NCBI RefSeq assembly: GCF_001010805.1
Contig: NZ_CP011477.1
Location: 496,001 to 560,000 of the forward strand
Origin: Spongiibacter sp. IMCC21906
Lineage (GTDB): Bacteria; Pseudomonadota; Gammaproteobacteria; Pseudomonadales; Spongiibacteraceae
Length of the DNA stretch: 64,000 bases
Reading direction: 5' to 3'
Part shown: piece by piece, positions 3,782-19,209 of the stretch
Layout of the letters: each line of letters opens with the position of its first letter
Position numbering within the stretch: position 1 is the stretch's first letter
Program-made: the position numbers and the translations under genes
Notes under the pieces: model-generated
What the model was told of the DNA's origin: nothing
Database searches by the model: none
What the model saw: only the letters and a program-made list of their open reading frames with translations

Positions 3782-4377
3782 TGTTGGTTTAACTCTTTTA
3801 TCCAGAAGCGCAAGGGTTTAGTGCTGTTCTCGTCTGTCCCTACATCGGGCCAATCGAAGTGGCACATAATTTCGGTGGGCCGATAGTGGTGGCGCCGCCA
3901 GAATGCCTCGTTGCCTCGGTAGTTTAAGGGTTTTCGCGGATCGTCGGCGTGCCTTTCTACAGCACAAAAGCAGCCATTTTTCTTGCCGAGATGTATGCCG
4001 TGGTTTTCTCTTAGTTTAAAAAAATGCCCACCTAAACCCTGGCCCCGATACGGTCGAAGAATCAAGGATTCGCCGTAATAGAGGAATTCGTCAGCCGAAT
4101 ACCCCGCGCTTATCATAGGTTTTTGCATTTCTGTTTCAGCATGTTCTAGTGGCAGTGCGGTGGAGGCAGCAACCAATGTGTCCCCATCAAAGCAGAGCAT
4201 ACTGATACTGTCAGCGCAGTCGGCATAGCGTTGTAAATACATCGCCTCGTAGTGCATGTTGCCCTCGTAAAGATAGGGCCATTCCCGAAAGACAGACATA
4301 CGTAACTGGGCTAAGGCGTTGAGATGTTCGCCGATTGCGCTGCCATTCAGGGTTTTGATGTTTAGAAAATTGAGCAT
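3778..4377 (-). CDS. GNAT-family N-acetyltransferase
   Basis: A cytoplasmic acetyl-CoA-dependent acyltransferase. The acetyl-CoA pyrophosphate loop is visible as RPYRGQGLGGHFF, preceded by the strand ESLIL and followed by the CFCAVER strand. Length is 199 aa from the internal ATG at 4377, which I prefer over the in-frame codon at 4398 because the longer N-terminus has no family resemblance. The substrate is unknown. The gene overlaps the downstream lipoprotein by 4 nt and lies 35 bp after the ZIP transporter gene, so an operon of four genes is likely. Confidence 0.75.
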   Translation of the reverse strand: MLNFLNIKTLNGSAIGEHLNALAQLRMSVFREWPYLYEGNMHYEAMYLQRYADCADSISMLCFDGDTLVAASTALPLEHAETEMQKPMISAGYSADEFLYYGESLILRPYRGQGLGGHFFKLRENHGIHLGKKNGCFCAVERHADDPRKPLNYRGNEAFWRRHHYRPTEIMCHFDWPDVGTDENSTKPLRFWIKELNQQ

Positions 4378-4412
4378 TTTTCTCGGAGCACTTTGCACAG
4401 GAATTTATGGTA

Positions 4413-5132
4413 TCAGCTTTGGGTAAGTATGGTGCCTAGCATGGCCAGGGCAAAACCGATAACAGCGCCGAGGGGCGGCCCCCAGTGTTTTTCTAGTTTG
4501 GCCTGTGGCGCAATATCTTGAAAGATGAGATAGAGAATACCGCCACTTGCCAATAGCAGCACACTTCCAAGCGCCATTTCCTGGCCTGCTAATACGCTGT
4601 AGCCCAATACTGCAAACAACGGCCCCAAAGGAATTAACACTAGCATTAAAAGTAAAATATTGCGCCGGGAATGGCCTGCGTCCTGTAACTCCCGAAAGGC
4701 GTTGAAGCCTTCAGGTAAATTTTGTAGGCCGATCAGTATTGCCAGCAGTGCGGCATCACTGGAGCCGCTGGCGATAATACCGCCCAATGCTAAGGATTCA
4801 GGGAGGTAGTCCAGCAGCATGCCGGTGAGTTGTGGAGCCGCTTTTTTCCTGACGCCAAGTTGTTGTTCCAGCAGAAAAAACAGTAATCCGCCGGACAAAA
4901 ATAAGGCAATGGCACCCAGAGAGTAGTCCATGGCGGTGAGCGCTTCAGGCACCAATACCATGGCGACAGCGCCAGCTAGAATGCCGCCACCCAAAGCAAT
5001 AACAAAGTGGCGAAACTCTTGCTCAAGCCAGTCGCGCTGAAACCGCGCCATGCCTGCGAGAGCGCCGCCTATTACAATACAGGCACCGGCTCCGGCGCTG
5101 TAGAACACGAGTAACCAGTGGCTAGCATTCAT
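4413..5132 (-). CDS. ZIP-family divalent metal transporter
   Basis: An inner-membrane transporter expected to bring zinc or related divalent metals into the cytoplasm. The 239-aa sequence is almost entirely hydrophobic with about eight predicted membrane segments. The two ZIP signature helices are seen as DYLPESLALGG (108-118) and LQNLPEGFNAF (136-146). In many ZIPs the first residue of each motif is a histidine ligand; here they are Asp108 and Gln137, a pattern that may belong to a ZIP subfamily and could change metal preference. The start ATG overlaps the stop of the upstream esterase gene (ATGA, 5129-5132). Confidence 0.85.
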   Translation of the reverse strand: MNASHWLLVFYSAGAGACIVIGGALAGMARFQRDWLEQEFRHFVIALGGGILAGAVAMVLVPEALTAMDYSLGAIALFLSGGLLFFLLEQQLGVRKKAAPQLTGMLLDYLPESLALGGIIASGSSDAALLAILIGLQNLPEGFNAFRELQDAGHSRRNILLLMLVLIPLGPLFAVLGYSVLAGQEMALGSVLLLASGGILYLIFQDIAPQAKLEKHWGPPLGAVIGFALAMLGTILTQS

Positions 5133-5983
5133 GGTTGATTTTTGAAGTTGGTGAGTTGGAACATAAATTTTTCCACCGCTTCGGTGTACTCGCCCTCGCT
5201 TCCCAAATTGCTGTTGATCGCCAGATGACTCAGGTTTTGGGGCAGTACGGTAGTGGCAACACCAAGGGCTTTGCCTTTTGCAGAAAAGGATTCCGCTTGA
5301 TTGCAGCTATCGCTGCGACGGTTTGAGCATACCAAAAGTATGGGCTTCACTTTGGCGTGGAGGTGATGCGTCGCCGAATTTTGCCGCCAATATTCGGGTT
5401 CATCACCAAAGGCCCGGTCATAGAGTTTCGGGTGGCGCTTCTCCATGATTTGAGTGATATCGAGGGCGGCGCTATCCAACAATATGGCGCCTTGCCAGTG
5501 CAGTTTTGGATAAGCTGATGTCAACGCGGGATTCGTTGCGATGATGGCGACGAGTTGTGCTCCCGCTGAATGCCCCATTAACACCATTTGCTTTGGATCG
5601 GCCTGCCATTGGGGGGCAAGCTTTTGCACCTCGGCTAAGGCGCTGGCAATGTCCTTTGCTTGTTGATCCGGAGGTGTATCTGGCAGCATGCGGTAGTTGA
5701 GGGAAACCAGAACCCAGCCCTGTTCAACCCAGCGTTGGATTTTGTTTTTGACCACGGCGCGATTTTTCTTATCGCCAAAACGCCATGCGCCGCCATGCAC
5801 CATTACCAACAACGGACGTTGCGAGGAGGCTTGATCGGGAAGATATACGTCCATGCGCTGGGCGGGATCGTTTCCGTAGGCGATATCTTCCAGTTTACTG
5901 GCGTTGGCAAGGCCGGTGAGTGAGAGAAGAAAAATCATGGCGATGCCAGCGCGGCGTCGGTGCCAGCAGTTTTTCATCTGCAC
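5129..5983 (-). CDS. Secreted alpha/beta hydrolase (esterase, BD-FAE/Aes-like)
   Basis: A 284-aa hydrolase with an N-terminal signal peptide (basic RRRAG, then IAMIFLLSLTGLANA), so it is probably periplasmic. The oxyanion-hole motif HGGAW is at 63-67 and the nucleophile elbow GHSAGA at 137-142, with Ser139 as nucleophile. The C-terminal SHLAIN supplies the likely catalytic histidine. DVYLPD near residue 45 is typical of the BD-FAE/Aes esterase group. The substrate is unknown. It appears to be the first gene of the minus-strand set esterase - ZIP transporter - GNAT - lipoprotein. Confidence 0.82.
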   Translation of the reverse strand: MQMKNCWHRRRAGIAMIFLLSLTGLANASKLEDIAYGNDPAQRMDVYLPDQASSQRPLLVMVHGGAWRFGDKKNRAVVKNKIQRWVEQGWVLVSLNYRMLPDTPPDQQAKDIASALAEVQKLAPQWQADPKQMVLMGHSAGAQLVAIIATNPALTSAYPKLHWQGAILLDSAALDITQIMEKRHPKLYDRAFGDEPEYWRQNSATHHLHAKVKPILLVCSNRRSDSCNQAESFSAKGKALGVATTVLPQNLSHLAINSNLGSEGEYTEAVEKFMFQLTNFKNQP

Positions 5984-6009
5984 GTCCCTGTTTTGGGCTT
6001 GGAATGTAT

Positions 6010-6423
6010 TTAGGGAGCATCGCAGCTGGCGCGACTCTCCCAGAGTGCCGTCAAAATGGCACCGCGGGTTAGCAGACCAAGCAAAACGCCGTCTTCAATG
6101 ACCGGATAGGATTTGGGGCGGTTTTTACCCATTGTTTGGGCAATGTCGACAATTGAGCGGTCGGGACTCACCGATAAAACTTCATTGTGCATCACGTCGC
6201 TGACGGTGGGCGAGCCTTCGCAGTGATAGCTGCTCACGAGCATAGCGTGAATGCAGTCTTGCTCAGAGACAAAGCCAATGACGGTGTTTTGATCATCGAC
6301 CACCGGTAGGCCTGTGAGCTGGTGCTTAATGAGCGTGTCGACAACTTCACCCAGCGCCGCGTTGGCTTTTATCATTGGGGCGGGGCTGATCATAATACTG
6401 CTGGCTAAAAGACTTGTGCTCAT
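6010..6423 (-). CDS. CBS-pair domain protein
   Basis: A 137-aa cytoplasmic protein made only of two CBS motifs (about residues 10-65 and 75-130), a fold that binds adenine nucleotides and acts as an energy or ligand sensor. Conserved pieces are HQLTGLPVVDDQNTVIGFVS and SYPVIEDGVLLGLLTR. I choose the ATG at 6423 because AAGGAG stands 8 nt before it; a longer in-frame start at 6456 has no such site. Partner and target are unknown. It lies 119 bp downstream of pirin and 26 bp upstream of the esterase gene. Confidence 0.8.
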   Translation of the reverse strand: MSTSLLASSIMISPAPMIKANAALGEVVDTLIKHQLTGLPVVDDQNTVIGFVSEQDCIHAMLVSSYHCEGSPTVSDVMHNEVLSVSPDRSIVDIAQTMGKNRPKSYPVIEDGVLLGLLTRGAILTALWESRASCDAP

Positions 6424-6542
6424 AACATCACTCCTTGAAACGGATAATAAAATCATATGCCCGTTTTAGAGCTAGGCAAAGTCGAAAAATTCGATGGTGA
6501 TCAATAATGGTGAACCTTAGGCCAAGTTAATCGCGTTCAATT

Positions 6543-7409
6543 TTAAGGCAGTGCCAAACGACCATCCCGGTAATCTTGAAGGGTTTGTTCAATTTCTTCG
6601 CTGCTGTTCATCACAAAAGGACCGTATTGCACGATGGGTTCATTGATGGGGCGTCCGGCAATGAACAAGGCCTGAACCGCGCCTTGACGGGCGCTAAGTT
6701 CGAGCGTGTCGCCCTCCCCCAATACGGCTGCGTGGGCCTCTGGGACCAGCTTGCTGCCGATAGTTGCTTCGCCTTCATAGACGTAAATGACCGCGTTGTG
6801 ATGGGCGGGAGTTGCCAGCTGCAAGGTCTCGCCAGCAGCCAAGCGCAGGTCTGCATAAATGGGCGCGGTGCTTAAGGTTTTGCCCTCATGTTGGGTCAGG
6901 GCGCCGCTGAGCAGCTTATTGGCCAAGGTCAGCTCACCGGCGATCAATTTTATTTCGCCGCCGTGTGGGGTGGGATAATGAGGAATTTGATCCGCTGGTA
7001 AGTCTCGGTACCACGGGGCCTGCATTTTTTCTGTCGCAGGCAGATTGATCCACAGCTGAAAGCCACGCATGCGACCCTGATTTTGTTGGGGCATTTCTGA
7101 GTGGATGATCCCTCTGCCCGCCCGCATCCACTGGACGCCTCCGGACTTCAGGTCACCTTTATTACCCAGATGATCTTCATGGAGCATATGGCCGTCGAGG
7201 ATATAGGTGACGGTTTCAAAGCCCCGATGTGGATGAGAGGGAAAGCCCGCTAGATAATCGGCAGGTTCGTCGGAGTAAAACTCGTCCAGCATTAATAACG
7301 GATCCAGGCGCGCGCCAGCGGACTGGCCCAAGCTGCGCCGCAGTTTTACGCCGGCACCGTCGCTGGTGTCGATGGCGCGGATGAGTTGTTTTACTTGGCG
7401 AGCAGGCAT
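6543..7409 (-). CDS. Pirin family protein
   Basis: A 288-aa cupin-fold iron protein of the pirin family; some members act as quercetin dioxygenases or redox-linked regulators. The N-terminal cupin contains HPHRGFETVTYILDGHMLHE, supplying the metal ligands (two His, one His or Glu). It is followed by GGVQWMRAGRGIIHSEMP, a pirin hallmark. The C-terminal pirin domain follows from about residue 175. The start at 7409 is chosen for the GGGAGGG site 6 nt upstream. It is 42 bp behind azoR on the same strand, and a lysR - azoR - pirin arrangement is common in Pseudomonas and relatives. Confidence 0.9.
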   Translation of the reverse strand: MPARQVKQLIRAIDTSDGAGVKLRRSLGQSAGARLDPLLMLDEFYSDEPADYLAGFPSHPHRGFETVTYILDGHMLHEDHLGNKGDLKSGGVQWMRAGRGIIHSEMPQQNQGRMRGFQLWINLPATEKMQAPWYRDLPADQIPHYPTPHGGEIKLIAGELTLANKLLSGALTQHEGKTLSTAPIYADLRLAAGETLQLATPAHHNAVIYVYEGEATIGSKLVPEAHAAVLGEGDTLELSARQGAVQALFIAGRPINEPIVQYGPFVMNSSEEIEQTLQDYRDGRLALP

Positions 7410-7451: not shown

Positions 7452-8060
7452 TTAGGCCGCTAAAGTTGTAGCAATTTTACTTTGCGCATCTTTTAAGGCT
7501 GTGGCAGCAGTATCTTCGCCCAAGTTCAGTCCCTCGGCGTAGATAAATTCCACCTTTGTTAAACCCATTAAGCCTAAAATATGGCGCAGATACGTGCTTT
7601 GGGTGTCCATTTCGGTACCCTGATATTGACCGCCTCGAGCAGCGAGTACGTAAACGTTGGTATCGCTATTTAGCAGGCCTTGAGGGCCATTTTCAGTATA
7701 GCGAAAAGTTTGGCCAGCTCTGGCTACATGGTCGATCCAGGCCTTGAGCGTGGACGGCACACCGAGGTTGTACATGGGCACACCCAGAATCAGCACTTTG
7801 GCAGCTTTTAATTCGCTAATAAGGGTGTCAGAGAGGGCCAGCACCTCTTTTTGGTAGTCGTTAAGTTCGGCTTCCGGGCTGCTAAACGCGGCAAAGCGCT
7901 CACCGTCTAAATGGGGGATGGGTTGGCTGTGCAGGTCCCGGTATTGATACTGGCTGGCGGGGTTGGCGTTCAGCAAGGTATTGGCGAATTCGGCGGCCAG
8001 TCGGCTGGATTTACCCTCTTGGCCAAATAAACTGCTGTCGATATGAAGAATGTTAGTCAT
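7452..8060 (-). CDS. azoR: FMN-dependent NADH:quinone oxidoreductase / azoreductase
   Basis: A flavodoxin-fold enzyme that uses NADH to reduce quinones and azo compounds by two electrons, in the cytoplasm. The 202-aa length matches AzoR. Family features are ILHIDSSLFGQEGKSSRLA at the FMN phosphate loop, VPMYNLGVPSTLKAWIDHV around the flavin ring, and the LAARGGQY loop. The start has a GGACC spacer region and a poor Shine-Dalgarno (AAGGACC). Expression is probably controlled by the LysR protein encoded at 19310, which would ordinarily be its divergent neighbour but is now 11 kb away across the restriction island. Confidence 0.93.
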   Translation of the reverse strand: MTNILHIDSSLFGQEGKSSRLAAEFANTLLNANPASQYQYRDLHSQPIPHLDGERFAAFSSPEAELNDYQKEVLALSDTLISELKAAKVLILGVPMYNLGVPSTLKAWIDHVARAGQTFRYTENGPQGLLNSDTNVYVLAARGGQYQGTEMDTQSTYLRHILGLMGLTKVEFIYAEGLNLGEDTAATALKDAQSKIATTLAA

Positions 8061-8110
8061 GGTTATTGGTCCTTCTGTCCTGTAATGGGTTTTGCTTTGC
8101 CATGTGCCCT

Positions 8111-8175
8111 ATTTAATGATTGATTTAGTTGTTTAAAAAGCGCAATTTACTGGCTTAACCAATCAAGAAATTGAA
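8111..8175. repeat. Left copy of 65-bp island-flanking repeat (putative LysR operator region)
   Basis: This segment aligns without gaps to 19239-19303 at roughly 78 percent identity over the first 60 bases, including an exact 10-base block GTTTAAAAAG and a shared TTAACCAATCA end. Outer TGATTG and CAATCA are inverted with respect to each other. It begins 51 bp upstream of azoR, and the partner copy ends 7 bp before lysR, so each gene of the split divergon keeps one copy. It is most simply a promoter/operator for the LysR regulator. The role as an insertion boundary is inferred. Confidence 0.65.
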
Positions 8176-8180
8176 TATTA

Positions 8181-8578
8181 ATGCTGGCGCATGATCGATG
8201 GCAGGGTTTACTGGCTGAGAGACAGGTGATCCAGGAGATTGTTCTTACGGAGCAGGATTCAGATACCATACGGCGGCGCTGACTCGGCTTAACAGAACAC
8301 CGTTTTCGAAAGGTAAATCTAAAGGGCTACATACGCATGGAACAATAGGAGCCAGCGGGAAGGCGTTCACTGCTTTGAAGAGGCTTTACCGCCATTGCCG
8401 TAGGCGCTCCCAAAGTTACTGAAAAACAACCAAAATTCGAAATCGAACATGTTTTGCAATGGTGGGGCTCACTGGAATGCCCTCAGAGCCATATCTTGGG
8501 CGTCACGCCTGCAGGGCGACTTCCGCCATAATTCGGCGCAGCTGCGCGCCCAAATAAATAATTGACTAAGGGACCTGA
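8181..8578. other. Intergenic left end of the restriction island, no convincing gene
   Basis: About 400 bp between the left repeat and hsdM. A 33-codon frame opens at 8181 (MLAHDRWQGLLAERQV...) and stops at 8282. It has no clear ribosome binding site and may be the remnant of a disrupted gene. The rest shows short palindromes, including GGCGTCACGCC at 8499-8509 and the perfect 12-mer GCGCAGCTGCGC at 8536-8547, 32 bp before hsdM. The latter could be an operator or leader hairpin. No integrase, transposase or tRNA end is visible. Confidence 0.4.
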
Positions 8579-11017
8579 ATGGATCACAGCGCACACAACA
8601 AACTCGTATCCTTTATATGGAATATAGCCGATGACTGCCTGCGCGACGTCTATGTACGGGGCAAGTACCGGGATGTCATTCTGCCGATGGTCGTTCTACG
8701 CCGCCTCGATACCCTCCTGATGCCCACCAAGGAGACCGTGCTGGAGGAGGTGCGGTACCAGAAGGAGGAGATGGAAGCCACGGAGCTTGACGAGGAACCC
8801 CTCAAGGAGGCCTCAGGCTATGTGTTCTACAACATCTCGAAGTGGACGCTCACTAACCTGTATAACACCGCCACCAATAACCGCCAGATCATGCTGGCGA
8901 ATTTTGAGGAGTACCTGAACGGGTTCAGCCCCAACGTTCAGGAAATCATTGAACGCTTCGAGCTCAAAAGTAAAATCCAGCATATGGCCCACAAGGACGT
9001 GCTTCTTGATGTGGTCGAGAAATTTGTCTCTCCCAAAATCAATCTTACCCCCAATGATGCTGTGGATCCTGATGGCTACAAGCTGCCCGGACTGTCCAAC
9101 CTTGGCATGGGCTATGTATTTGAGGAGCTGATCCGCAAGTTCAACGAAGAAAACAACGAAGAGGCCGGTGAGCATTTTACTCCACGGGAAGTGATCGAGC
9201 TGATGACTCACCTGGTTTTCGATCCCGTCAAAGATTCGCTGCCGCTGACAATGACGGTGTACGACCCCGCCTGCGGCAGCGGCGGTATGCTCACCGAGTC
9301 ACAGAACTTTATTGAAGAAAAGTACCCCTCAGGTTCTTCATCTCAAAGTCAGCGTGATATTTACCTCTACGGCAAGGAGATCAACGACGAGACTTACGCC
9401 ATCTGTAAGTCCGATATGATGATCAAGGGCAACAACCCGGAAAACATCAAAGTCGGCTCCACCCTGTCCACCGATGAATTCGCCTCAAATCGCTTCGACT
9501 TTATGCTCTCCAACCCGCCCTACGGCAAGAGCTGGGCGTCAGAGCAGAAGTACATCAAGGAAAATGGCGATGTGATTGATGCCCGCTTCAAGGTCAAGCT
9601 GAAAGACTATTGGGGAAATCTGGAAGACTGCGACGCCACGCCTCGTTCCAGCGATGGTCAGCTGCTGTTCCTGATGGAAATGGTCAGCAAGATGAAAGAC
9701 CCGGCCACAGGTACCAATGGCAGTAGAATCGCATCCGTCCACAACGGCTCAAGCCTGTTTACCGGCGACGCCGGCGGTGGCGAAAGCAATATTCGCCGGT
9801 ACATTATTGAAAATGACTGGCTCGACGCCATTGTGCAACTGCCCAATAACCTGTTCTACAACACCGGCATTACCACCTATATCTGGCTGCTCAATAACAA
9901 CAAACCGGAATCCCGCAGGGGAAAAGTACAGCTGATTGATGCCAGCCTGTTGTACCGCAAGCTCCGCAAGAACCTGGGCAACAAAAACTGCGAGTTTGCA
10001 CCGGAACATATCGAAGAGATTACCCGCGCCTATCTGGACTGCGCCGCCATTGAGCGCAAGCTGGATGCAAACGGTAACCCGACCGGTATTGCCAGCCAGG
10101 TATTTCGCAATGAGGATTTCGGCTACTACAAAGTCACCATTGAACGGCCCGACCGTCGCAAGGCCCAATTCTCTGCAGAGTGCATCGCCAGCCTGCGTTT
10201 CGACAAGCAGCAAAGTGAAGTCATGGCGCATTTTTATGCAGAGCATGGTGACAAAGTTTACGATAAGACCGGACACGGCAAAGACAACAAGCAAAGCTTC
10301 CTGAAAAGCATTGAGAAAGCCATTCTTGCCTGGTGTGAAGAAAATGACATCAACCTCAATGCCAAGGCGAAAACCAAGCTGCTGGATGTAAAGTATTGGT
10401 TAGCACTGAAGGCTATTTATGAAACTGCCGGTGAGCTGATGGCGGCCATCGGTGAGCAGCAGTTCGATGACTACAACGTATTCAAAGAGCAGGTGGATAC
10501 TGCGCTGAAAGCCAGAAAGATCAAACTCTCCGTCCCAGAAAAAAACGCCATTCTCAATGCCGTTAGCTGGTACGACGAATCTGCGGCCAAGGTGGTTAAA
10601 AAAGTCCTTAAGTTAAGTGGCGACAAATTGGATGAAGTGCTGGAGCGCTACGGCTGCACCCAAGCGCAACTGCCGGATTTTGGGTTTTACCCAACTAATA
10701 AGAAAAACGAATACATCACCTATGAAGCCAGTAGCGATCTGCGTGACAGTGAATCAGTGTCATTGTTGAAAGATGATGAGCGGCAAAGCATTCATCAGTA
10801 TTTCCTGGATGAAGTAAAGCCCCATGTAGAGGAAGCCTGGACCAATCTGGATTCCGTCAAAATCGGCTACGAGATTAGCTTTAACAAATACTTCTATCGC
10901 CATAAGCCGCTGCGTTCATTGGAGGACGTTGCAAAGGACATTATCACCCTGGAGCAAAAGGCTGAGGGCTTGATTGCTCAGATTCTGGGTGTGGATATTG
11001 AGCAGGTGCAGGGGTGA
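8579..11017 (+). CDS. hsdM: Type I restriction-modification system DNA methyltransferase subunit HsdM
   Basis: Adenine-N6 methyltransferase subunit; with HsdS it methylates the recognition site and with HsdR it forms the restriction complex. An HsdM_N helical domain covers about residues 5-170. The methyltransferase domain has the SAM motif DPACGSGGML at about 229 and the catalytic NPPYG at about 312. At 812 aa it is some 300 residues longer than classical EcoKI-type HsdM (about 530). The extra C-terminal part (about 520-812) is charged and helical with no motif I recognise. It has a GGGACC pre-start region with weak Shine-Dalgarno. hsdS follows with a 1-bp gap. Confidence 0.93.
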   Translation: MDHSAHNKLVSFIWNIADDCLRDVYVRGKYRDVILPMVVLRRLDTLLMPTKETVLEEVRYQKEEMEATELDEEPLKEASGYVFYNISKWTLTNLYNTATNNRQIMLANFEEYLNGFSPNVQEIIERFELKSKIQHMAHKDVLLDVVEKFVSPKINLTPNDAVDPDGYKLPGLSNLGMGYVFEELIRKFNEENNEEAGEHFTPREVIELMTHLVFDPVKDSLPLTMTVYDPACGSGGMLTESQNFIEEKYPSGSSSQSQRDIYLYGKEINDETYAICKSDMMIKGNNPENIKVGSTLSTDEFASNRFDFMLSNPPYGKSWASEQKYIKENGDVIDARFKVKLKDYWGNLEDCDATPRSSDGQLLFLMEMVSKMKDPATGTNGSRIASVHNGSSLFTGDAGGGESNIRRYIIENDWLDAIVQLPNNLFYNTGITTYIWLLNNNKPESRRGKVQLIDASLLYRKLRKNLGNKNCEFAPEHIEEITRAYLDCAAIERKLDANGNPTGIASQVFRNEDFGYYKVTIERPDRRKAQFSAECIASLRFDKQQSEVMAHFYAEHGDKVYDKTGHGKDNKQSFLKSIEKAILAWCEENDINLNAKAKTKLLDVKYWLALKAIYETAGELMAAIGEQQFDDYNVFKEQVDTALKARKIKLSVPEKNAILNAVSWYDESAAKVVKKVLKLSGDKLDEVLERYGCTQAQLPDFGFYPTNKKNEYITYEASSDLRDSESVSLLKDDERQSIHQYFLDEVKPHVEEAWTNLDSVKIGYEISFNKYFYRHKPLRSLEDVAKDIITLEQKAEGLIAQILGVDIEQVQG

Positions 11018-11018
11018 T

Positions 11019-12452
11019 ATGAGTATGACGAGTATTGTTGAGCTGCCCAAGTATGAGGCTTATAAAGATTCCGGCTATGGGTGGATCGGCAACGTCCCAT
11101 CAAAATGGGAGGTGTCAAAACTTGGTAGTTGTTTGTCTCCGATTTCAATCAAAAATCATCCAGATTTGCCCCTGCTGTCTATAACGAGAGAAAAAGGGGT
11201 AATTGAGCGGGACATAGAGGATCAAGATTCAAATCATAATTTCATTCCTGATGATTTGAGTGGCTATAAATTGCTCAAAGAGGGGCAGTTTGGAATGAAT
11301 AAAATGAAGGCATGGCAAGGCTCTTACGGTGTGTCAAATCATACCGGAATCGTTAGCCCCGCATACTTCGTTTTTGATTTCGTAAAGCCTATATGTCCGT
11401 CATTCTTTAATTGGGCAATACGGAGCAATTTATATGTTTCGTACTTTGGTAGCGCTTCGGATGGTGTTCGAGTTGGTCAATGGGATTTGTCGAAAAGCAG
11501 AATGAAGTTTATTCCATTTCTGATTCCTTCTGAGCAAGATCAAAAGTTAATTGCCAATTTCCTCGACAAAAAAACCACCCAAATCGACGAAGCCATTGCC
11601 ATCAAAGAGCAGCAGATCGCCCTGCTGAAAGAGCGCAAGCAAATCATTATCCAAAAAGCCGTCACCCAGGGGCTTGGTTCCACAAATTCGTCTGGAACGA
11701 ATTTGAACAGCGGCTCTGCCGCTGGCCCGCAGGGCGAGGGCATGGATAGCTCGAGTAATGTGCCTATGAAAGATTCCGGCGTGGATTGGATTGGGGAGAT
11801 GCCGACGCATTGGGACTTAGTTAAGTTGCGTGGATTGGGCAATATAGTTCGAGGCGGATCGCCACGACCGGCTGGACATCCGATGTACTTTTCTGACGAG
11901 GGTGTTCATTGGATTACGGTGGGCGAGGTGACCAAAAACGAAAATGCCTTTTTAGAAAAAACAACAGGATTTCTGACTAAAAGAGGTGTTGAGCAAAGCA
12001 GGTATATTGAGAGCGGTACTTTCTTGTTAACGAACAGTGGTGCAACTTTGGGGGTGCCAAAGATTTCCAGAATTTCCGGTTGCATAAATGACGGCGTACT
12101 TGCATTTCTCGGAGTAAATGAGAGCAGAATATCAAAAAATTTCTTGTATTACTTTTTTTCTTCTCAAACTATGAGGATTCGAGATGAGATGAATCAAGGC
12201 GCCACGCAGCCGAATTTAAACACGAATTTGGTTAAGAATATGAAGTTGCCGTTGCCTCCCGTTATTGAACAAGAAAAAATCGTCGAGTGGTTGAATAAGT
12301 TCACCATTGATGTTCGGGTGTGCATCACTATTCAAAATGAACAAATCAAAAAGCTAAAAGAATACAAAACCACCCTGATCAACAGCGCAGTGACCGGCAA
12401 AATCAAAGTCACCCCTGAAATGGCAGAGATGCAGGAAGCAGTGGAGGCATAA
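11019..12452 (+). CDS. hsdS: Type I restriction-modification system specificity subunit HsdS
   Basis: Sets the bipartite DNA target of the type I complex. The 477-aa protein shows the expected internal duplication. KDSGYGWIGNVPSKW (about 16-30) and KDSGVDWIGEMPTHW (about 250-264) open the two target-recognition domains. Each domain ends in a helical spacer (DEAIAIKEQQIALLKERKQ; QNEQIKKLKEYKTTLINSAV). Start at 11019: TGATATG places it 1 nt after the hsdM stop with an AGGGG site inside hsdM. An unusual 25-residue Ser/Gly/Asn-rich linker (about 223-247) between the halves coincides with two DNA palindromes. TRD codons are AT-richer than the flanking helices, as is usual for exchanged TRDs. Confidence 0.93.
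   Translation: MSMTSIVELPKYEAYKDSGYGWIGNVPSKWEVSKLGSCLSPISIKNHPDLPLLSITREKGVIERDIEDQDSNHNFIPDDLSGYKLLKEGQFGMNKMKAWQGSYGVSNHTGIVSPAYFVFDFVKPICPSFFNWAIRSNLYVSYFGSASDGVRVGQWDLSKSRMKFIPFLIPSEQDQKLIANFLDKKTTQIDEAIAIKEQQIALLKERKQIIIQKAVTQGLGSTNSSGTNLNSGSAAGPQGEGMDSSSNVPMKDSGVDWIGEMPTHWDLVKLRGLGNIVRGGSPRPAGHPMYFSDEGVHWITVGEVTKNENAFLEKTTGFLTKRGVEQSRYIESGTFLLTNSGATLGVPKISRISGCINDGVLAFLGVNESRISKNFLYYFFSSQTMRIRDEMNQGATQPNLNTNLVKNMKLPLPPVIEQEKIVEWLNKFTIDVRVCITIQNEQIKKLKEYKTTLINSAVTGKIKVTPEMAEMQEAVEA
11684..11724. repeat. Two adjacent palindromes inside hsdS linker
   Basis: First palindrome: AAATTCGT (11684-11691), 5-nt loop CTGGA, ACGAATTT (11697-11704). Second: CAGCGGC (11708-11714), loop TCT, GCCGCTG (11718-11724). 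Both are perfect. They encode part of a low-complexity linker between the two halves of HsdS, at the point where HsdS proteins usually run directly from QGL to a short N-V-P-M-K-D-S-G junction. The position and structure look like a small palindromic insertion that kept the frame. No other copy was found in this window. Confidence 0.6.
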
Positions 12453-12454
12453 GG

Positions 12455-13627
12455 ATGTTCACCGTCAATCACCAGACCAACCGCATTAGCCCGGTAAAAA
12501 TCAAAACCTTCAGCGAGCTGGGTTTTAGCGAACGAAAGCACCTACAGGAGTGGTTGGCCTATCAGCCCGATGCATTGGGTGAAGAACTGCTGATTATCCA
12601 GAAGGAGTTTGATGGCTTTGACGACACCCGTGAGCGCCTTGACCTGCTGGCGCTGGATAAAGACGGCAACCTGGTGATTATCGAAAACAAGCTGGATGAC
12701 AGTGGCCGCGATGTGGTGTGGCAGGCACTGAAATACGCCTCCTATTGCGCTAGCCTCACCAAAGGACAAATAGTCGAAATTTACCAGCAGTACCTGCACC
12801 GCTACCAACCAACAATTCAGGCTGGCGAATCCTTGGCCCAGGCAGGGCAGCCTTCTGATGCCGCATCACGAATTTGTGAGTTCCTTGATGCGCCAGATCT
12901 GGATGAAGTAAAACTCAATCTGGGCAATAGCCAGAGAATTATGCTGGTAGCTGCTAACTTTAGAAAGGAGGTCACCAGCACCGCCCTTTGGCTGCTCGGT
13001 CAGGGAATAAGCGTTCAATGCTTTAAGGTCACACCCTACTCCCTCGGTGAGCAGTTATTAATCAATATCGACCAGATTATTCCCACGCCGGAAGCCAGAG
13101 AGCTGATGATTGGTATTAGCGCCAAGGAGGCGGAGGAGAAAACCACGGAAGTGGTGCGAAGAAATGCCCAGAGCATCAGAAGGGAGTATTGGGAGCAGGC
13201 ACTGGAAGTCTTCCAGAAAAGTGCTTGTACCCTGTACAACAATATCAGCCCCAGCAAAGATCACTGGCTTTCTGCGGGGTCGGGTTTGAGTGGCTGCCCC
13301 TACAATCTGATTTTCTTGCAGAAGGAGCTTCGGGTAGAGCTTTGGATAAGCCGAGGTAATACGCTTGAGAACAAGTTTTTGTTCGATTCTCTGATGGCAA
13401 TGAAGCAGGAGGTTGAACAGAGCTTTGGCGCGGAGCTGGAATGGATGCGACTGGAAAGCAAAAAATCCTGTCGAATTCAGTTCTCTTGCCCAGCGGATGC
13501 TTTTAATAAGGACGCATGGCCGGAATCTGTTACTTGGCACCTGGCGCATATGAGCAAGCTGGAGCAGGCGCTGAAGCAACCGCTGCAAAAAGCCGCCGAC
13601 GCATTGAAACAGCATGGTTTTGAGTAG
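12455..13627 (+). CDS. DUF4268-type protein with PD-(D/E)XK nuclease-like N-terminus
   Basis: A 390-aa cytoplasmic protein starting 2 bp after hsdS with an overlapping AAGGATG start. The N-terminal part (about 30-130) holds RLDLLALDKDGNLVIIENK, the D-x(n)-E-x-K arrangement of PD-(D/E)XK nucleases, and resembles NucS/DUF91-like folds. The C-terminal half (about 240-385) resembles the DUF4268 family, often encoded near restriction systems. It could be a nuclease with an accessory defence role or a partner of the HsdRMS complex. Family placement is from memory of motifs; enzymatic activity is inferred. The tight spacing means it is almost certainly co-transcribed with hsdMS. Confidence 0.7.
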   Translation: MFTVNHQTNRISPVKIKTFSELGFSERKHLQEWLAYQPDALGEELLIIQKEFDGFDDTRERLDLLALDKDGNLVIIENKLDDSGRDVVWQALKYASYCASLTKGQIVEIYQQYLHRYQPTIQAGESLAQAGQPSDAASRICEFLDAPDLDEVKLNLGNSQRIMLVAANFRKEVTSTALWLLGQGISVQCFKVTPYSLGEQLLINIDQIIPTPEARELMIGISAKEAEEKTTEVVRRNAQSIRREYWEQALEVFQKSACTLYNNISPSKDHWLSAGSGLSGCPYNLIFLQKELRVELWISRGNTLENKFLFDSLMAMKQEVEQSFGAELEWMRLESKKSCRIQFSCPADAFNKDAWPESVTWHLAHMSKLEQALKQPLQKAADALKQHGFE

Positions 13628-13636
13628 GGTTATTCG

Positions 13637-15106
13637 ATGACCGTAGACCGCAGCCAAGAGTACTTACAATCCCTGCTAAAAGAACTGTGCTCACTGCCGC
13701 AGGAAACCGAATGGGTGGAGTTCAAGCACAACAACGATGACGCGCCGCTGATCGGTGAATATATTTCGGCGTTGGCGAATTCGGCGGCTTTGCTGGGCAA
13801 GCAATCTGCCTATGTGGTTTGGGGTGTTGAGAATGATACCCACGAGGTGATCGGCACTACGTTCAAGCCTTCGGCGGCTCGTCACAAGCAGCAGGAGTTG
13901 GAAAGTTGGTTGTTGCAAAAAATATCGCCAAAGATTCACTTTCGCTTTTTTGAGTTTGTCAGTGCTAATGGGTTGTCGGTCGTTATTCTGGAAATGCAGG
14001 CTGCTACCAATAATCCGGTGCAATTTGAAGGCATCGAGTTTATTCGTGTTGGCTCCTATAAAAAGAAGTTAAAGGAGTATCCAGAGAAAGAGCGAGCACT
14101 ATGGCGGATTTTCGATAAAACGCCTTTTGAGCGTCAAATGGCAGCCTCTAATTTAAGTGCCGATGAGGTGCTGAAATTGCTGGATTACCCGGCCTATTTT
14201 GAGTTAACCAGCTTGCCTTTGCCGGATAATCGTGCCGGTATTTTAAATGCTTTAAAGGCAGATCAGTTGATTCAGGAAGTGCCCGGTGGTCAATGGGGTA
14301 TCGCGAATCTGGGCGCCATTCTGTTTGCGAAAAAGTTGCAAAATTTTCAGCACCTTGGGCGCAAGGCGGTGCGCCTGATTTTATACCGGGGTAACAGCCG
14401 TATCGAAACGGTGCGAGAATTTGGCGGCAACAAAGGTTATGCCGTTGGCTTTGAAGGGCTTATCGATTATATAAAGACCCTGTTGCCCTCCAATGAAGAA
14501 ATAGGCAAAGCGTTCCGTAAAGAAGTGCCTATGTATCCAGAGCTGGCTATTCGTGAGTTGGTAGCGAATGCCATTATTCATCAGGATTTCACCCTGACGG
14601 GTACCGGCCCCATGATTGAGCTTTTTGACAAGCGGATGGAGATTACCAACCCCGGGGTGCCATTGGTGGATACCCAGCGCTTCTTGGATAGCCCTCCTCA
14701 AAGCCGCAATGAAGCCCTGGCGTCATTTATGCGCCGAATCAATATTTGTGAGGAGCGCGGTAGCGGTGTTGATAAGGTTATTGGTCAGGTGGAGGTTTAT
14801 CAATTACCCGCCCCTATCTTTGAAAAGACGGATCAACATACCCGTGTAGTATTGTTCACATATAAAGATTTCAAGGATATGGAGTCAGAGGATCGGATAA
14901 GAGCTTGCTATCAGCATTGCTGCCTGAAATATGTCAATCGGGAGCCCATGAATAATACCTCTCTGAGAGAGCGGTTCCGTATTGAGGAGGGAAACAGCGC
15001 AATGGCAAGCCGCATTATCAAGCAAACGGTGGAGGCTGGGCTGATTCGACTCCATGACTCCACTGCGAATAGAAGAGCCTATCGTTATGTCCCCTTTTGG
15101 GCATAG
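13637..15106 (+). CDS. AlbA_2 (Schlafen-like) domain and GHKL-type ATP-binding protein
   Basis: A 489-aa protein with an N-terminal AlbA_2/Schlafen-type domain (about 14-135; ETEWVEFKHN, then ISALANSAALLGKQSAYVVW and GVEND). A central to C-terminal HATPase_c_4-like region follows (RELVANAIIHQDFT at about 300-313, EITNPGVPL, EERGSGVDKV). A winged-helix end covers about 430-485. Proteins with this architecture are called putative transcriptional regulators or ATP-dependent helicases in databases, and some are linked with phage defence. The gene starts 9 bp after the nuclease-like ORF and is followed by a 218-bp gap before hsdR. The function inside an hsd locus is unknown. Confidence 0.72.
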   Translation: MTVDRSQEYLQSLLKELCSLPQETEWVEFKHNNDDAPLIGEYISALANSAALLGKQSAYVVWGVENDTHEVIGTTFKPSAARHKQQELESWLLQKISPKIHFRFFEFVSANGLSVVILEMQAATNNPVQFEGIEFIRVGSYKKKLKEYPEKERALWRIFDKTPFERQMAASNLSADEVLKLLDYPAYFELTSLPLPDNRAGILNALKADQLIQEVPGGQWGIANLGAILFAKKLQNFQHLGRKAVRLILYRGNSRIETVREFGGNKGYAVGFEGLIDYIKTLLPSNEEIGKAFRKEVPMYPELAIRELVANAIIHQDFTLTGTGPMIELFDKRMEITNPGVPLVDTQRFLDSPPQSRNEALASFMRRINICEERGSGVDKVIGQVEVYQLPAPIFEKTDQHTRVVLFTYKDFKDMESEDRIRACYQHCCLKYVNREPMNNTSLRERFRIEEGNSAMASRIIKQTVEAGLIRLHDSTANRRAYRYVPFWA

Positions 15107-15123
15107 CGCTGTTCTCATGTGAC

Positions 15124-15210
15124 GGTCATTTGACGGGATACAGGGTTGATTTTGTCTGTCCTTTTAAAATCAATGTGTTGCGGTTGTTTTTCATTTGATG
15201 GTCATTTGAC
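15124..15210. repeat. Direct repeats GGTCATTTGAC upstream of hsdR
   Basis: The 11-mer GGTCATTTGAC occurs at 15124-15134 and again at 15200-15210, 76 bp apart. An additional TCATTTGA is at 15191-15198 and a related CATTTGATTG lies near 15270. All lie in the only sizeable gap inside the hsd gene set, between the AlbA_2 gene and hsdR. They may be operator sites for separate control of hsdR, which would help delay restriction until methylation is established. This is inference from position; no promoter hexamers are clear. Confidence 0.35.
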
Positions 15211-15324
15211 TAGAAGGTTGAATGTTGGAACTAAATATAAGTAAATCAATTGGTTAGCTTGTTGTTCCCATTTGATTGAGGCTTTATTCTAAAGGCGAGT
15301 AAAGACAGATAGATAGGATGTTTT

Positions 15325-18300
15325 ATGGTCAGCAACACCAAGGAACAGGCGCTGGAGGCCGCGATTGAGCAGGCTTTGACTGGCACCACCATAGAAGCCG
15401 TCAAGGCTGCGGGGGAGATTGCCGATGGTGCCCACACCCAGGTCAGGGAGACGCCAGCTGACTATCTGGTGGGCAATCAGCGTTTTAAGCTGGGGCTGCC
15501 GACCGATTTCAACGCTCAATACGCCATCGATAACCGATTTTTCTGGCGTTTCTTAGAACAGACCCAAACGCTGGAGCTGGCTAAGCTCCAAAAGCACAAC
15601 CCGTCGGATTGGCAGCGCAAGCTGTTAGAACGCTATGACCGGCTGATGAAAAAGCATGGAATTCTGCACTTGCTGAAGAAAGGGCTGAGTGTGGACGATG
15701 CCCACTTTCACCTGATGTACCCTGCCCCACTGGCCAGTAGCAGCGAGAAGGTGAAGCAGAACTTTGCTGCCAACATCTTCAGCTGCACGCGCCAGGTTTG
15801 TTACTCCCTGGCCAATCCCCTTCAGGAAATCGACATGGTGCTGTTCCTGAATGGCATCCCCCTGGTGACGCTGGAGTTGAAAAACGCCTGGACGGGGCAA
15901 ACGGCCCGTTACCACGGCCAGAAACAGTACCGTGAAGACCGTGATACGAATCAGCCACTACTGAATTTCGCGCGCTGCCTGGTGCATATGGCGGTGGACA
16001 CCGATGAAGTGTATATGACCACCAAGCTGGCTGGGAAAGGCACTTTCTTTTTACCCTTTAACAAAGGCCACAATCACGGCAAAGGTAATCCGCCGAATCC
16101 AAGTGGCCACAAGACAGCCTATCTCTGGGAGCAGGTGTTCACCAAGGACAGTATGGCGAACATCATCCAGCACTTTGTAAGGCTGGACGGAAGCAGCAAA
16201 GATCCGCTGGCCAAACGCACCCTGTTTTTTCCTCGCTATCATCAGCTTGATGTGGTTCGTAGGCTGGTAAAGCACGCTGCAGAATACGGTGTTGGACAAA
16301 GTTACCTGATTCAGCATTCCGCTGGTTCGGGAAAATCAAACTCGATCACCTGGGCCGCCTATCAATTGATCGAAACCTATCCGCTCTCTGAGACGGTTGA
16401 GGGCAACCGGGGCATGGAGCAGCCGCTATTCGATTCTGTGATAGTGGTCACTGATCGGCGGCTTCTGGATAAGCAACTGCGTGACAATATCAAGGAATTC
16501 TCAGAGGTTAAGAATATTGTCGCCCCGGCATTCAAGTCCTCAGAGCTTAAGCATGCTCTGGAAGCGGGCAAAAAAATTATCATCACTACCATTCAGAAAT
16601 TCCCCTTCATTATTGATGGCATTGAAGATCTCAGCGACAAACGCTTTGCCGTAATCATCGACGAAGCTCACAGCTCTCAGTCTGGCTCGGCACACGACAA
16701 TATGAATCGGGCTATGGGGCAGTCGGCCATTGAGGAAGAGGAAGACGCCCAGGACAAAATCCTGATGGCAATGAAGTCCCGAAAAATGCGCGGCAATGCC
16801 TCTTACTTGGCGTTCACTGCTACGCCCAAAAACACCACGCTTGAAAAGTTTGGTGAGCAGCAAGCTGACGGCTCTTTCAAGCCATTTCACCTCTACTCGA
16901 TGAAGCAAGCCATAGAGGAAGGCTTTATTCTTGATGTGCTGGCCAACTACACCACCTACAAAAGCTACTATGAGATTGAAAAATCGATAGCCGAGAACCC
17001 CGAATTCGACACCAAAAAGGCGCAGAAGAAGCTGCGCGCCTATGTTGAGCGCAGTCAGCACACCATCGACACCAAAGCCGAGATTATGCTCGAGCACTTC
17101 ATTGCCCATGTGATCAACGGTAAGAAGCTGAAAGGCAAAGCGAAGGCCATGGTGATTACTCAGAACATCGAGACCGCGATTCGCTACCACAAAGCGCTGA
17201 CGAGACTGCTGATCGCCAAGGGGTCGCCCTTTAAAGCCTTGATAGCCTTCTCAGGTACAAAGGAAGTGGACGGCATTGAGTACACCGAGGCCGAAATAAA
17301 CGGGTTTTCCGAGTCTGACACCAAAGACAAATTCGACACGGATGAATATCGCATGCTCGTGGTGGCGAACAAGTACCTGACGGGCTTTGACCAACCCAAA
17401 CTATCCACTATGTATGTGGATAAGAAATTGGCTTCGGTGTTGTGCGTTCAGGCGCTGTCACGCTTGAACCGATCGTCTCAAAAGCTCGGTAAGAAAACGG
17501 AAGACCTCTTCATTCTGGATTTCTTTAACAATGTGGACGACATCAAAACCGCCTTTGACCCCTTCTATACCGCGACTTCACTATCGCAGGCGACTGACAT
17601 CAATGTACTGCATGAGTTGAAAGATGCACTGGACGATGTGGGAGTGTATGAGTGGTACGAAGTCGAAGACTTTGTGAAGCGGTATTTCAACAACGAAGAT
17701 GCTCAGAAGCTTAGCCCCATTATCGATGTAGCAGCTGCCCGCTTTGAGCACGAACTTGAGCTGGAAGACAGCGAGAAAATCGATTTCAAAATCAAAGCCA
17801 AGCAGTTTGTGAAGATCTATGGCCAGATGGCGTCGATTATCCCCTATGAAATCGCCGTTTGGGAGAAGTTGTTCTGGTTCCTCAAGTTCCTGATACCCAA
17901 GCTGAAAGTGAGCGACCCTGATGCAGACGCCATCGACGAGCTACTGAGCTCGGTAGATCTGAGTTCCTACGGGCTTCAGAGAGTCAAGCTCAACCAGGCG
18001 ATTGCGCTGGATGCCGGAGAAACTGAGGTTGATCCGCAAAACCCCAATCCGCGCGGCGCGCATGGTGTGGAGGTGGAGACCGATCCACTGGATGAGATTG
18101 TCCGGAGCTTCAATGAGCGATGGTTTCAGGGCTGGAGCGCAACTCCTGAAGAGCAGCGTGTTAAATTCGTCAACATCGCAGAAAGTATTCGTCAGCATCC
18201 AGACTTTGAAGATAAGTACAAGAACAACCCTGATCCTCATAATCGCGAGCTGGCTTTCGAGAAAATTCTAAAGGAAATTATGCTTCGCCGTCGTAAAGAC

Positions 18301-18390
18301 GAACTTGAGTTGTACAAGCTGTTTGCGGGGGATGTCGCTTTCAAGGCCTCGTGGATGCAGAGTATGCAGAGGGTTATTGACCGAGGCTAG
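15325..18390 (+). CDS. hsdR: Type I restriction endonuclease subunit HsdR
   Basis: Motor and nuclease subunit that translocates and cuts unmethylated DNA. In the 1021-aa protein the N-terminal PD-(D/E)XK nuclease is seen around residues 165-190 (MVLFLNGIPLVTLELKN). The SF2 helicase core has Walker A HSAGSGKSNS at about 331, DEAH at about 446 (IIDEAHSSQSG), motif III FTATPKN, and the second RecA lobe with VANKYLTGFDQPKL and QALSRLNRS. A C-terminal helical domain follows from about 800. The start at 15325 is preceded by a modest AGGATG. It is separated from hsdMS by two other genes rather than adjacent to them. Confidence 0.94.
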   Translation: MVSNTKEQALEAAIEQALTGTTIEAVKAAGEIADGAHTQVRETPADYLVGNQRFKLGLPTDFNAQYAIDNRFFWRFLEQTQTLELAKLQKHNPSDWQRKLLERYDRLMKKHGILHLLKKGLSVDDAHFHLMYPAPLASSSEKVKQNFAANIFSCTRQVCYSLANPLQEIDMVLFLNGIPLVTLELKNAWTGQTARYHGQKQYREDRDTNQPLLNFARCLVHMAVDTDEVYMTTKLAGKGTFFLPFNKGHNHGKGNPPNPSGHKTAYLWEQVFTKDSMANIIQHFVRLDGSSKDPLAKRTLFFPRYHQLDVVRRLVKHAAEYGVGQSYLIQHSAGSGKSNSITWAAYQLIETYPLSETVEGNRGMEQPLFDSVIVVTDRRLLDKQLRDNIKEFSEVKNIVAPAFKSSELKHALEAGKKIIITTIQKFPFIIDGIEDLSDKRFAVIIDEAHSSQSGSAHDNMNRAMGQSAIEEEEDAQDKILMAMKSRKMRGNASYLAFTATPKNTTLEKFGEQQADGSFKPFHLYSMKQAIEEGFILDVLANYTTYKSYYEIEKSIAENPEFDTKKAQKKLRAYVERSQHTIDTKAEIMLEHFIAHVINGKKLKGKAKAMVITQNIETAIRYHKALTRLLIAKGSPFKALIAFSGTKEVDGIEYTEAEINGFSESDTKDKFDTDEYRMLVVANKYLTGFDQPKLSTMYVDKKLASVLCVQALSRLNRSSQKLGKKTEDLFILDFFNNVDDIKTAFDPFYTATSLSQATDINVLHELKDALDDVGVYEWYEVEDFVKRYFNNEDAQKLSPIIDVAAARFEHELELEDSEKIDFKIKAKQFVKIYGQMASIIPYEIAVWEKLFWFLKFLIPKLKVSDPDADAIDELLSSVDLSSYGLQRVKLNQAIALDAGETEVDPQNPNPRGAHGVEVETDPLDEIVRSFNERWFQGWSATPEEQRVKFVNIAESIRQHPDFEDKYKNNPDPHNRELAFEKILKEIMLRRRKDELELYKLFAGDVAFKASWMQSMQRVIDRG

Positions 18391-18458
18391 AAAATTCGGA
18401 GCCTTTGGCGGCGTGGGGCTTTGCCAAAAAGTTTCGAAAAGTCACAATGGAGTGAGCG

Positions 18459-18743
18459 TTGGAAGTTAAAAATAATCCTGCAGGTCGACTTTATGATTTG
18501 TTAAAGGCGGCGAAAAAGCAACCACCGAGAGAGAAAGTGAGAGATGTTTGGGCGAAGGTGTTTGATGTCGACCCAGCTGATACGGCCTTACTTTTAACGA
18601 TGATTGCTGACTTAATAATTTTGGTAGCCAATACGAAGGCTTCCATAGAGCGGCTGGAGAATGTAGACAATACGTTATATCTCAAGCCATTCGTTAAATT
18701 AGAAAACCTATTCTCTCAGGTTAATTTAAATCGTGAATGCTAG
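18459..18743 (+). CDS. Small hypothetical protein after hsdR (94 aa, TTG start)
   Basis: An unrecognised 94-aa protein. The likely start is TTG at 18459 with GGAG 8 nt upstream (AATGGAGTGAGCG). The N-terminal third is basic (LLKAAKKQPPREKVRDVW), and the middle is hydrophobic and helical (DTALLLTMIADLIILVANTK), followed by a leucine-rich stretch that could be a coiled coil. No signal peptide. It overlaps the next gene by 11 nt, so the two are probably translated together. Base composition is AT-richer than hsdR. It may be an accessory defence or toxin-antitoxin-like component, but this rests on context only. Confidence 0.6.
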   Translation: MEVKNNPAGRLYDLLKAAKKQPPREKVRDVWAKVFDVDPADTALLLTMIADLIILVANTKASIERLENVDNTLYLKPFVKLENLFSQVNLNREC

Positions 18744-19209
18744 TTGGGAGCCATGGCACAAACAATTGGACGAGCCGACGTTGTACGGTTTGCAGTTTGC
18801 GGCTGATCAGCTTTCGCGTAGCTCTGGCAAAACAGCATTGCCTGGTAAAGACATCGAGTCATTGCAGAGTGAGCTTGAGCAACTGTTAGATAATGTCATT
18901 GGATCTGATATTCCTCAGGGTTTGAAGGCCTTATTTTTGCGTAACTTAGAATCTATCCGCCATTCTGTTCTTGTGTATCGAATCAAGGGTATTGACGGCC
19001 TTGAAGAGGAGTTAGAACGTGCTGTCGGGTTCTTAGTGTTGAATCGTCAAGATATTCCTGCAGAAGGTGATCCATCCGAATCAAGGAAATATTGGGAGAA
19101 ATTTTTCTCATTGGTTGATCGAATCAATCAGTTGGTCGCTCTAGGTCGTGGAGTGAAGGAGTTGTCGGGGCCTGCAATGCATGCGATCAGTCATATTTTG
19201 GGTAAATAG
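18733..19209 (+). CDS. Hypothetical protein at right end of the island (158 aa, GTG start)
   Basis: A 158-aa protein that I do not recognise, starting at GTG 18733 inside the end of the previous gene. It is acidic and leucine-rich, predicted mostly helical, with no membrane segment or signal. Visible segments are DIESLQSELEQLLDNVIGSD and GLKALFLRNLESIRHSVLVY. The 11-nt overlap and shared low GC content suggest a two-gene module with the upstream ORF. It ends 30 bp before the right island repeat. Similar small pairs are seen behind hsdR in other bacteria as far as I can recall, without a characterised role. Confidence 0.6.
   Translation: MNASWEPWHKQLDEPTLYGLQFAADQLSRSSGKTALPGKDIESLQSELEQLLDNVIGSDIPQGLKALFLRNLESIRHSVLVYRIKGIDGLEEELERAVGFLVLNRQDIPAEGDPSESRKYWEKFFSLVDRINQLVALGRGVKELSGPAMHAISHILGK

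Follow-up and report, generated by a model that had tools for sequence, protein, structure and literature searches.

Defence genes embedded in type I restriction-modification (RM) operons are already known, and published reports describe several cases (PMC11411939, PMC12255303, PMC3874165). In EcoprrI the embedded gene encodes PrrC, an anticodon nuclease (PMC3874165, PMC2610378); the type I operon of VPI-2 holds TgvAB, a type IV restriction system of the GmrSD family (PMC11411939); and RptR, a repressor of type I RM islands, binds direct repeats in a promoter (PMC12255303). Proteins combining a Schlafen domain, a minimal histidine kinase (HK) and a winged helix-turn-helix (wHTH) occur near BREX and BR systems and are read as backup RNase effectors (PMC12839542). 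Our subject is a gene for an AlbA_2 (Schlafen-like) protein that lies just before hsdR in a type I operon of Spongiibacter sp. IMCC21906. It belongs to a stretch of 64,000 nucleotides (NZ_CP011477.1, positions 496,001 to 560,000), here called the window, to which all coordinates refer unless stated otherwise. The gap between this gene and hsdR contains evenly spaced arrays of a short repeat. In our opinion the AlbA_2 protein very probably binds these arrays as an operator and most likely controls hsdR in the window; this suggests a new kind of restriction control, in which a protein would read its own evenly spaced DNA sites before hsdR.

The protein has the Schlafen - HK-like - wHTH domain order of the class in PMC12839542. 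It belongs to the Schlafen/SLFN_AlbA_2 family both by its Pfam score (PF04326, 62.7 bits, cut-off 25.3) and by the Schlafen fold matches of its structure model. It is also a GHKL ATPase: HATPase_c_4 (PF13749) scores 77.7 bits (cut-off 26), and E307, N311, G375 and G377 of the N and G boxes are conserved in 69 of 69 relatives. A C-terminal winged helix occupies about residues 417-489 (model with predicted local distance difference test score, pLDDT, of 86.5; fold matches). E23 and E28 align with E206 and E211 of SLFN14. Schlafen RNases have three acidic catalytic residues; the third of these corresponds to position 66, where the window protein has N and 41 of 69 relatives have D. As separate observations, the same genome contains a second, shorter AlbA_2 gene (genome positions 3162927-3163334, our locus L188), and locus L174 has tandem AlbA_2 genes (417 and 489 amino acids, aa) ahead of further open reading frames (ORFs), at 4339-7053 of the reversed locus.

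Each of the described systems shares something with this locus. Like PrrC, the AlbA_2 protein is embedded in a type I operon and is possibly a tRNase. The slot of prrC is between hsdS and hsdR. PrrC has ABC-ATPase motifs, whereas the AlbA_2 protein has a GHKL ATPase, a Schlafen fold and a DNA operator; only HATPase_c_4 and SLFN_AlbA_2 reach an E-value of 0.001 or better in Pfam, and no PrrC-type ABC ATPase is among them. RptR is likewise a regulator of a type I RM island with direct-repeat sites, but it is small and its TAGCTA sites precede the island as a whole, while here we deal with a 489-aa ATPase and sites before hsdR only; TAGCTA is absent from 8001-8600 and 15107-15325 of the window. 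TgvAB also comprises two genes embedded in a type I operon, but the proteins are different. As to the class of PMC12839542, one of our loci (L141, DUF499-DUF3780-DUF1156-AlbA_2-PLD helicase, with arrays) looks like the BREX-related setting outlined there; that text does not contain the words operator or promoter, whereas here there is a cognate operator with a residue-base code. We found no report of such an operator or code in the full-text literature, a search that left out bioRxiv and most subscription journals.

The gap of 218 base pairs (bp) between AlbA_2 and hsdR (15107-15324) had been overlooked in the first-pass annotation of this DNA. It holds three sites (A, B and C) of a CATTTGAY repeat with an 11-bp period, in steps of 76 and 77 bp, as follows.

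13637..15106, + strand: AlbA_2 ORF, 489 aa (PF04326, PF13749, structure model, fold matches)
15115..15134, + strand: array A, 11-bp direct repeat TCATGTGACGG / TCATTTGAC
15168..15180, + strand: IHF-consensus match 1, AATCAATGTGTTG, between A and B
15191..15210, + strand: array B, TCATTTGATGG / TCATTTGAC, 76 bp from A
15244..15256, + strand: IHF-consensus match 2, AATCAATTGGTTA, between B and C
15268..15276, + strand: single half-site C, CCATTTGAT, 77 bp from B
15325..18390, + strand: hsdR, type I restriction subunit, 1021 aa (Pfam HSDR_N, SWI2_SNF2 and T1R_D3-like)

Both IHF-consensus matches in the gap are perfect, one for each neighbouring pair of sites, out of seven perfect matches in the whole 64-kb window with both strands counted. 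The repeat pair occurs twice in the 3.48-Mb genome, both times in this gap, while a reversed control pattern does not occur. With one mismatch allowed the pair is still confined to the gap, which rules out that these are sites of a wider regulon.

The operator, its linkage to the gene, the covariation and the 11-bp steps described below come from comparison between loci. We took the best 80 of 203 relatives of the AlbA_2 protein in species genomes, and in most of the loci an 11-bp tandem direct repeat stands directly 3' of the AlbA_2 stop codon. The unit is TCATTTGACGG in the window and TTGCTTGACCG, TTATTTGATGG, GTAATTGATGG, TTTGTTGATGG or others elsewhere; the variant differs between loci and is mostly constant inside a locus. 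Of 81 loci, 59 have a period-11 repeat in the first 60 bp behind the gene; among 81 shuffles one has it. Other periods from 6 to 25 reach at most 6 of 81 in the same 60 bp, and the 300 bp upstream of the gene show period 11 in 6 of 81 (2 for shuffles). After removal of near-identical proteins (112 of 133 kept), arrays accompany the relatives of at least 57% identity in 50 of 53 loci linked to hsd, in 19 of 22 non-hsd loci and in 10 of 15 loci with short flanks, as compared with 10 of 656 other ORFs. With a strict pattern, a pair of TTGAY, the counts are 49 of 53, 16 of 22, 9 of 15 and 2 of 656. Here a non-hsd locus is one with no relative of the window's Hsd proteins or of its DUF4268 protein within 6.5 kb, and some of these have other defence genes (L141). 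Shuffles, other periods and the 656 ORFs together rule out chance or generic AT-rich repeats. Arrays for autoregulation upstream of the gene are likewise rejected, as the TTGAY pair appears within 300 bp 5' of it in only 1 of 87 rows, a few of which are copies of the window.

Does the operator belong to hsdR rather than to AlbA_2? It does not, since arrays are absent from 28 of the 30 hsdR loci in which a complete AlbA_2 gene of this class is missing (29 of the 30 with about 1.5 kb of flank). The two exceptions are L103 and L102. Locus L103 keeps both arrays before hsdR together with an N-terminal remnant of AlbA_2 (996-1382) that overlaps hsdS by 4 bp; L102, which has arrays and no full gene, has a distant AlbA_2-ATPase paralogue upstream. 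Weak AlbA_2-like matches are present in L106, L122 and L124, all free of arrays. We further observed three repeat units or more than two arrays 3' of AlbA_2 in L027, L030, L061, L064 and L073. In L092 and L163 (41-43% identity) short, partly inverted motifs, GTGCTTTAGAGCA and GTGTTTTAACGCA, were seen by eye in place of direct repeats, possibly a changed binding mode.

The distance between the arrays is not arbitrary. In the 44 two-array loci with arrays 60-115 bp apart, to which the spacing test was applied, A and B are separated by 66, 75-78, 87-90, 97-101 or 109-111 bp, values that follow one another at intervals of about 11 bp. Such periodicity was not reached by any of 20000 samples drawn from a Gaussian or a uniform distribution, nor by any of 20000 Gaussian samples for the 32 loci left after thinning of relatives. 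An IHF match of 8 or 9 out of 9 positions, scored against the consensus and with limits of the window's A and B set by hand, lies between A and B in 28 of the 44 loci, while 5.3 are expected from dinucleotide shuffles; perfect matches occur in 8 loci, with 0.3 expected. In all 28 matching loci the centre of the match is 17-22 or 29-31 bp before B. From the end of B to the next start codon the median distance is 62.5 bp (at most 57 bp in 15 of 30).

Further, the protein changes with the repeat. We labelled each relative with the two bases before TTGA, which was possible for 72 of 113 (the others had no TTGAY pair or a tie), and permuted labels only within clades built from residues 1-410. The columns of highest covariation among all 489 are R479 (z 10.5), S454 (z 10.0), G452 (z 7.4) and A481 (z 5.7). 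The model places 452 and 454 at the start of the recognition helix (451-466) and 478-482 in the wing. When 61 non-redundant loci were analysed with four different clade cut-offs, residues 411-489 supplied 10, 8, 10 and 7 of the ten leading columns. The pairing can be read to some extent: a wing ANR[KR]A[YW] goes with CATTTGA (4 loci, close relatives), G[TAS]KAM mostly with GCTTGA and sometimes GTTTGA (close relatives), and VGxKSR with HNK in the helix goes with TTGTTGA (2 loci, close relatives). Head-to-tail winged helices such as PhoB usually target tandem 11-bp direct repeats. Taken together, the arrays, the gene linkage, the covariation and the 11-bp steps are the reason why we regard binding of the operator by the Schlafen-GHKL-winged-helix protein as very probable.

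On these grounds we propose the following explanation, which as a whole, from the three-domain regulator to the control of hsdR, we hold to be somewhat better than an even bet. The regulator would consist of a Schlafen-fold AlbA_2 domain, a GHKL-type ATP-binding domain and a C-terminal winged helix, and the last would bind the 11-bp repeats of A and B (and half-site C) with one subunit per repeat, head to tail. Both arrays would face the same side of the double helix, and IHF or another bending protein may join them into a loop over the hsdR leader. Co-transcription of AlbA_2 with the modification genes would couple the expression of hsdR to those genes, and the AlbA_2 and ATPase domains, presumably in an ATP-dependent manner, would read a signal and couple hsdR expression to it as well. 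The likeliest mode would be repression by the loop, which keeps hsdR low until the signal arrives; activation is an alternative.

Several observations weigh against this explanation. Of 56 distinct AlbA_2 loci with at least 57% identity and an hsd homologue close by, 40 have hsdR 3' of AlbA_2 and 10 have it 5', so the notion that AlbA_2 always precedes hsdR is ruled out (hsdR is upstream in 10 of 50 loci). Orphan copies (L020, L026, L034) have retained arrays even though the gene that follows is far away or lies on the opposite strand, so controlling a gene downstream can be no more than part of the explanation. Below 57% identity arrays are found in 10 of 22 relatives (0 of 6 hsd-linked, 6 of 8 non-hsd, 4 of 8 short-flank), and of four further plasmid loci one is positive in the period-11 test, two look array-like by eye and one is degenerate. 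Some loci, for example L008, L021, L025 and L028, contain two repeat variants. Three two-array loci have spacings of 56, 147 and 215 bp, beyond the range of 60-115 bp, and one of 320 bp is also listed. The IHF element was first spotted by eye in the same data, so its test is not fully independent; its reading is a consensus match, and the loci include phyla that perhaps have no IHF. As to covariation, the first column outside the winged-helix region, K295, already ranks seventh (z 5.1), columns 84, 86 and 94 join the top ten at the loosest clade cut-off, and permutation within clades leaves some relatedness in. Finally, no match to a sigma-70 promoter was found in the gap between AlbA_2 and hsdR.

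The first-pass annotation took the AlbA_2 protein for an extra effector or a guard. Our comparisons speak in the first place for a protein that binds specific DNA sequences and has an operator of its own before hsdR, but we keep the guard as a rival. By analogy with PrrC, a Schlafen-type RNase would be silent on the operator or on the Hsd complex, would be freed when a phage blocks restriction or when host DNA is damaged, and would then cut tRNA and abort the infection. The orphan genes with retained arrays leave room for such a role. Yet the window protein has N where the third acidic residue is expected (66), only 41 of 69 relatives have D there, and a pure effector would not need an evolving operator; we find this account unlikely, though not to be dismissed. 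A combination of both ideas is also conceivable, but we think it rather improbable: a Schlafen-family defence protein would be parked on the bent, helically phased A-IHF-B site as on a beacon and sense in what condition the host DNA is. If the beacon were lost, degraded or unbent during infection, hsdR would immediately be derepressed and the Schlafen domain set free, so that one protein would be switch, sensor and abortive-infection effector, with the orphans as its stand-alone form.

Another conceivable reading makes the gene, together with the arrays 3' of it, a mobile cassette in which the arrays would be a recombination or targeting site. Indeed, AlbA_2 proteins of 72-76% identity are found beside HsdM and HsdR of only 22-33% identity, a contrast from which it follows that AlbA_2 moved between unrelated operons, and copies lie near integrases in L176, L180 and L182 (by eye) and in L189 and L190 (annotated). 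Recombination sites, too, can be recognised by IHF-like sites that lie between direct repeats, which counts in favour of the cassette. But the AlbA_2 protein has no recombinase domain in Pfam, and in 86 of 87 rows a TTGAY pair is absent from the 300 bp 5' of the gene; we consider the cassette very unlikely. Least of all do we believe that the arrays act as RNA, for example as a type III-like antitoxin or a 3' processing signal. Short tandem repeats do adjoin a possible RNase gene here, but both the 11-bp steps between arrays and the way the repeats covary with a winged helix speak for double-stranded DNA.

The remainder of the operon, by ORFs and domain profiles, has the order hsdM-hsdS-DUF4268-AlbA_2-hsdR, all on the + strand.

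8579..11017, + strand: hsdM, type I DNA methyltransferase subunit, 812 aa (Pfam N6_Mtase and HsdM_N; PADLOC PDLC03029, 870 bits)
about 11019..12452, + strand: hsdS, specificity subunit (Pfam Methylase_S; PADLOC PDLC03191, 428 bits)
12455..13627, + strand: DUF4268 ORF, 390 aa (Pfam PF14088; PADLOC PDLC04913)

The hsdS start is the ATG taken from the sequence; the ORF tool gives a longer TTG start, and the profile scan began at 11022. With HsdM, HsdS and HsdR domains in one operon this is a type I RM system, while HsdR scores 205.9 bits against NCBIfam TIGR00348, under the cut-off of 284.55. The gaps reported in the first-pass annotation, 2 bp from hsdS to DUF4268 and 9 bp from DUF4268 to AlbA_2 on the same strand, are correct. 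Pfam, PADLOC and NCBIfam scans covered seven genes at 8579-19209, five of which are the three hsd genes, DUF4268 and AlbA_2; two small ORFs 3' of hsdR (94 and 158 aa, 18459-19209) match nothing in these three collections. A second HsdR homologue lies elsewhere in the genome (genome positions 1207153-1209153; 48% identity over residues 168-800).

That the DUF4268 and AlbA_2 genes are genuine extras in a type I operon stands, and AlbA_2 is linked to hsd genes far beyond this genome. The exact order of the window, for which a search had been proposed, does recur, but it is rare (3 of the 56 loci: the window, L003 and L004). L024 has hsdS-DUF4268-AlbA_2-hsdR at a contig edge, and L002 has all five genes with further ORFs between them, one being GmrSD. 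What repeats across relatives is AlbA_2 behind hsdS and before hsdR, with hsdM-hsdS-AlbA_2-hsdR in 22 of the 56. Among the first 25 Pfam families listed for neighbours, the next gene downstream (first 600 aa) has HSDR_N in 27 of 75 cases, HsdM_N in 6, Methylase_S in 5 and GmrSD_N in 4, and the next gene upstream (first 700 aa) has Methylase_S in 26 of 68 and DUF4268 in 3. In 18 of 89 rows AlbA_2 shares exactly 4 bp with the ORF before it, and a next ORF on the same strand follows after 85-480 bp in 72 of 75. In loci of the order hsdR-hsdM-hsdS-AlbA_2, the gene behind the arrays is GmrSD-like (L031) or DUF4268-like at 24% (L012), likely another effector, judging from first residues or a weak match.

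The suggestion that DUF4268 and AlbA_2 form a two-gene unit did not survive. Most AlbA_2 loci have no DUF4268 match, and L139, on an Escherichia coli plasmid, has hsdM-hsdS-DUF4268-hsdR with no AlbA_2 and 14 bp between DUF4268 and hsdR; loci with one gene only rule out a fixed unit. Close DUF4268 relatives occur in hsd operons both with and without AlbA_2. A general tie of DUF4268 to hsd is also rejected: of eight class-sample relatives (31-65% identity), only L144 (65%) has tblastn matches to both hsdM and hsdR, while L150 has a single hsdR fragment 7 kb away and L146 has almost no flank on one side. The more distant DUF4268 family is not generally part of hsd.

The DUF4268 protein itself (PF14088, 132.9 bits, cut-off 27) is a member of PADLOC PDC-S11 by profile (PDLC04913, 592.6 bits over residues 1-386), an entry that carries no description or mechanism. 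Its match to the NucS profile is weak (22.4 bits, cut-off 216). Every one of the 19 aligned relatives keeps D63, E77 and K79, a pattern that fits a PD-(D/E)XK site. Foldseek with the low-confidence model (mean pLDDT 70.5) gave no match under E 0.001; the Pyrococcus abyssi repair endonuclease 2vld came seventh (E 8.5e-3) amid unrelated rows. From its sequence, this is probably a PD-(D/E)XK NucS-like nuclease and a PADLOC candidate, and we would see it as a separate accessory nuclease of this operon type.

Restraint of type I restriction is known mainly as proteolytic control in E. coli (ClpXP). If our explanation is true, many bacteria would have a general means of holding restriction back in a DNA switch dedicated to this purpose ahead of hsdR, one that unrelated type I families share and that is also seen in at least one BREX-related locus (L141). 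Schlafen-like proteins would then gain a sequence-specific DNA-binding role with a readable residue-base code.

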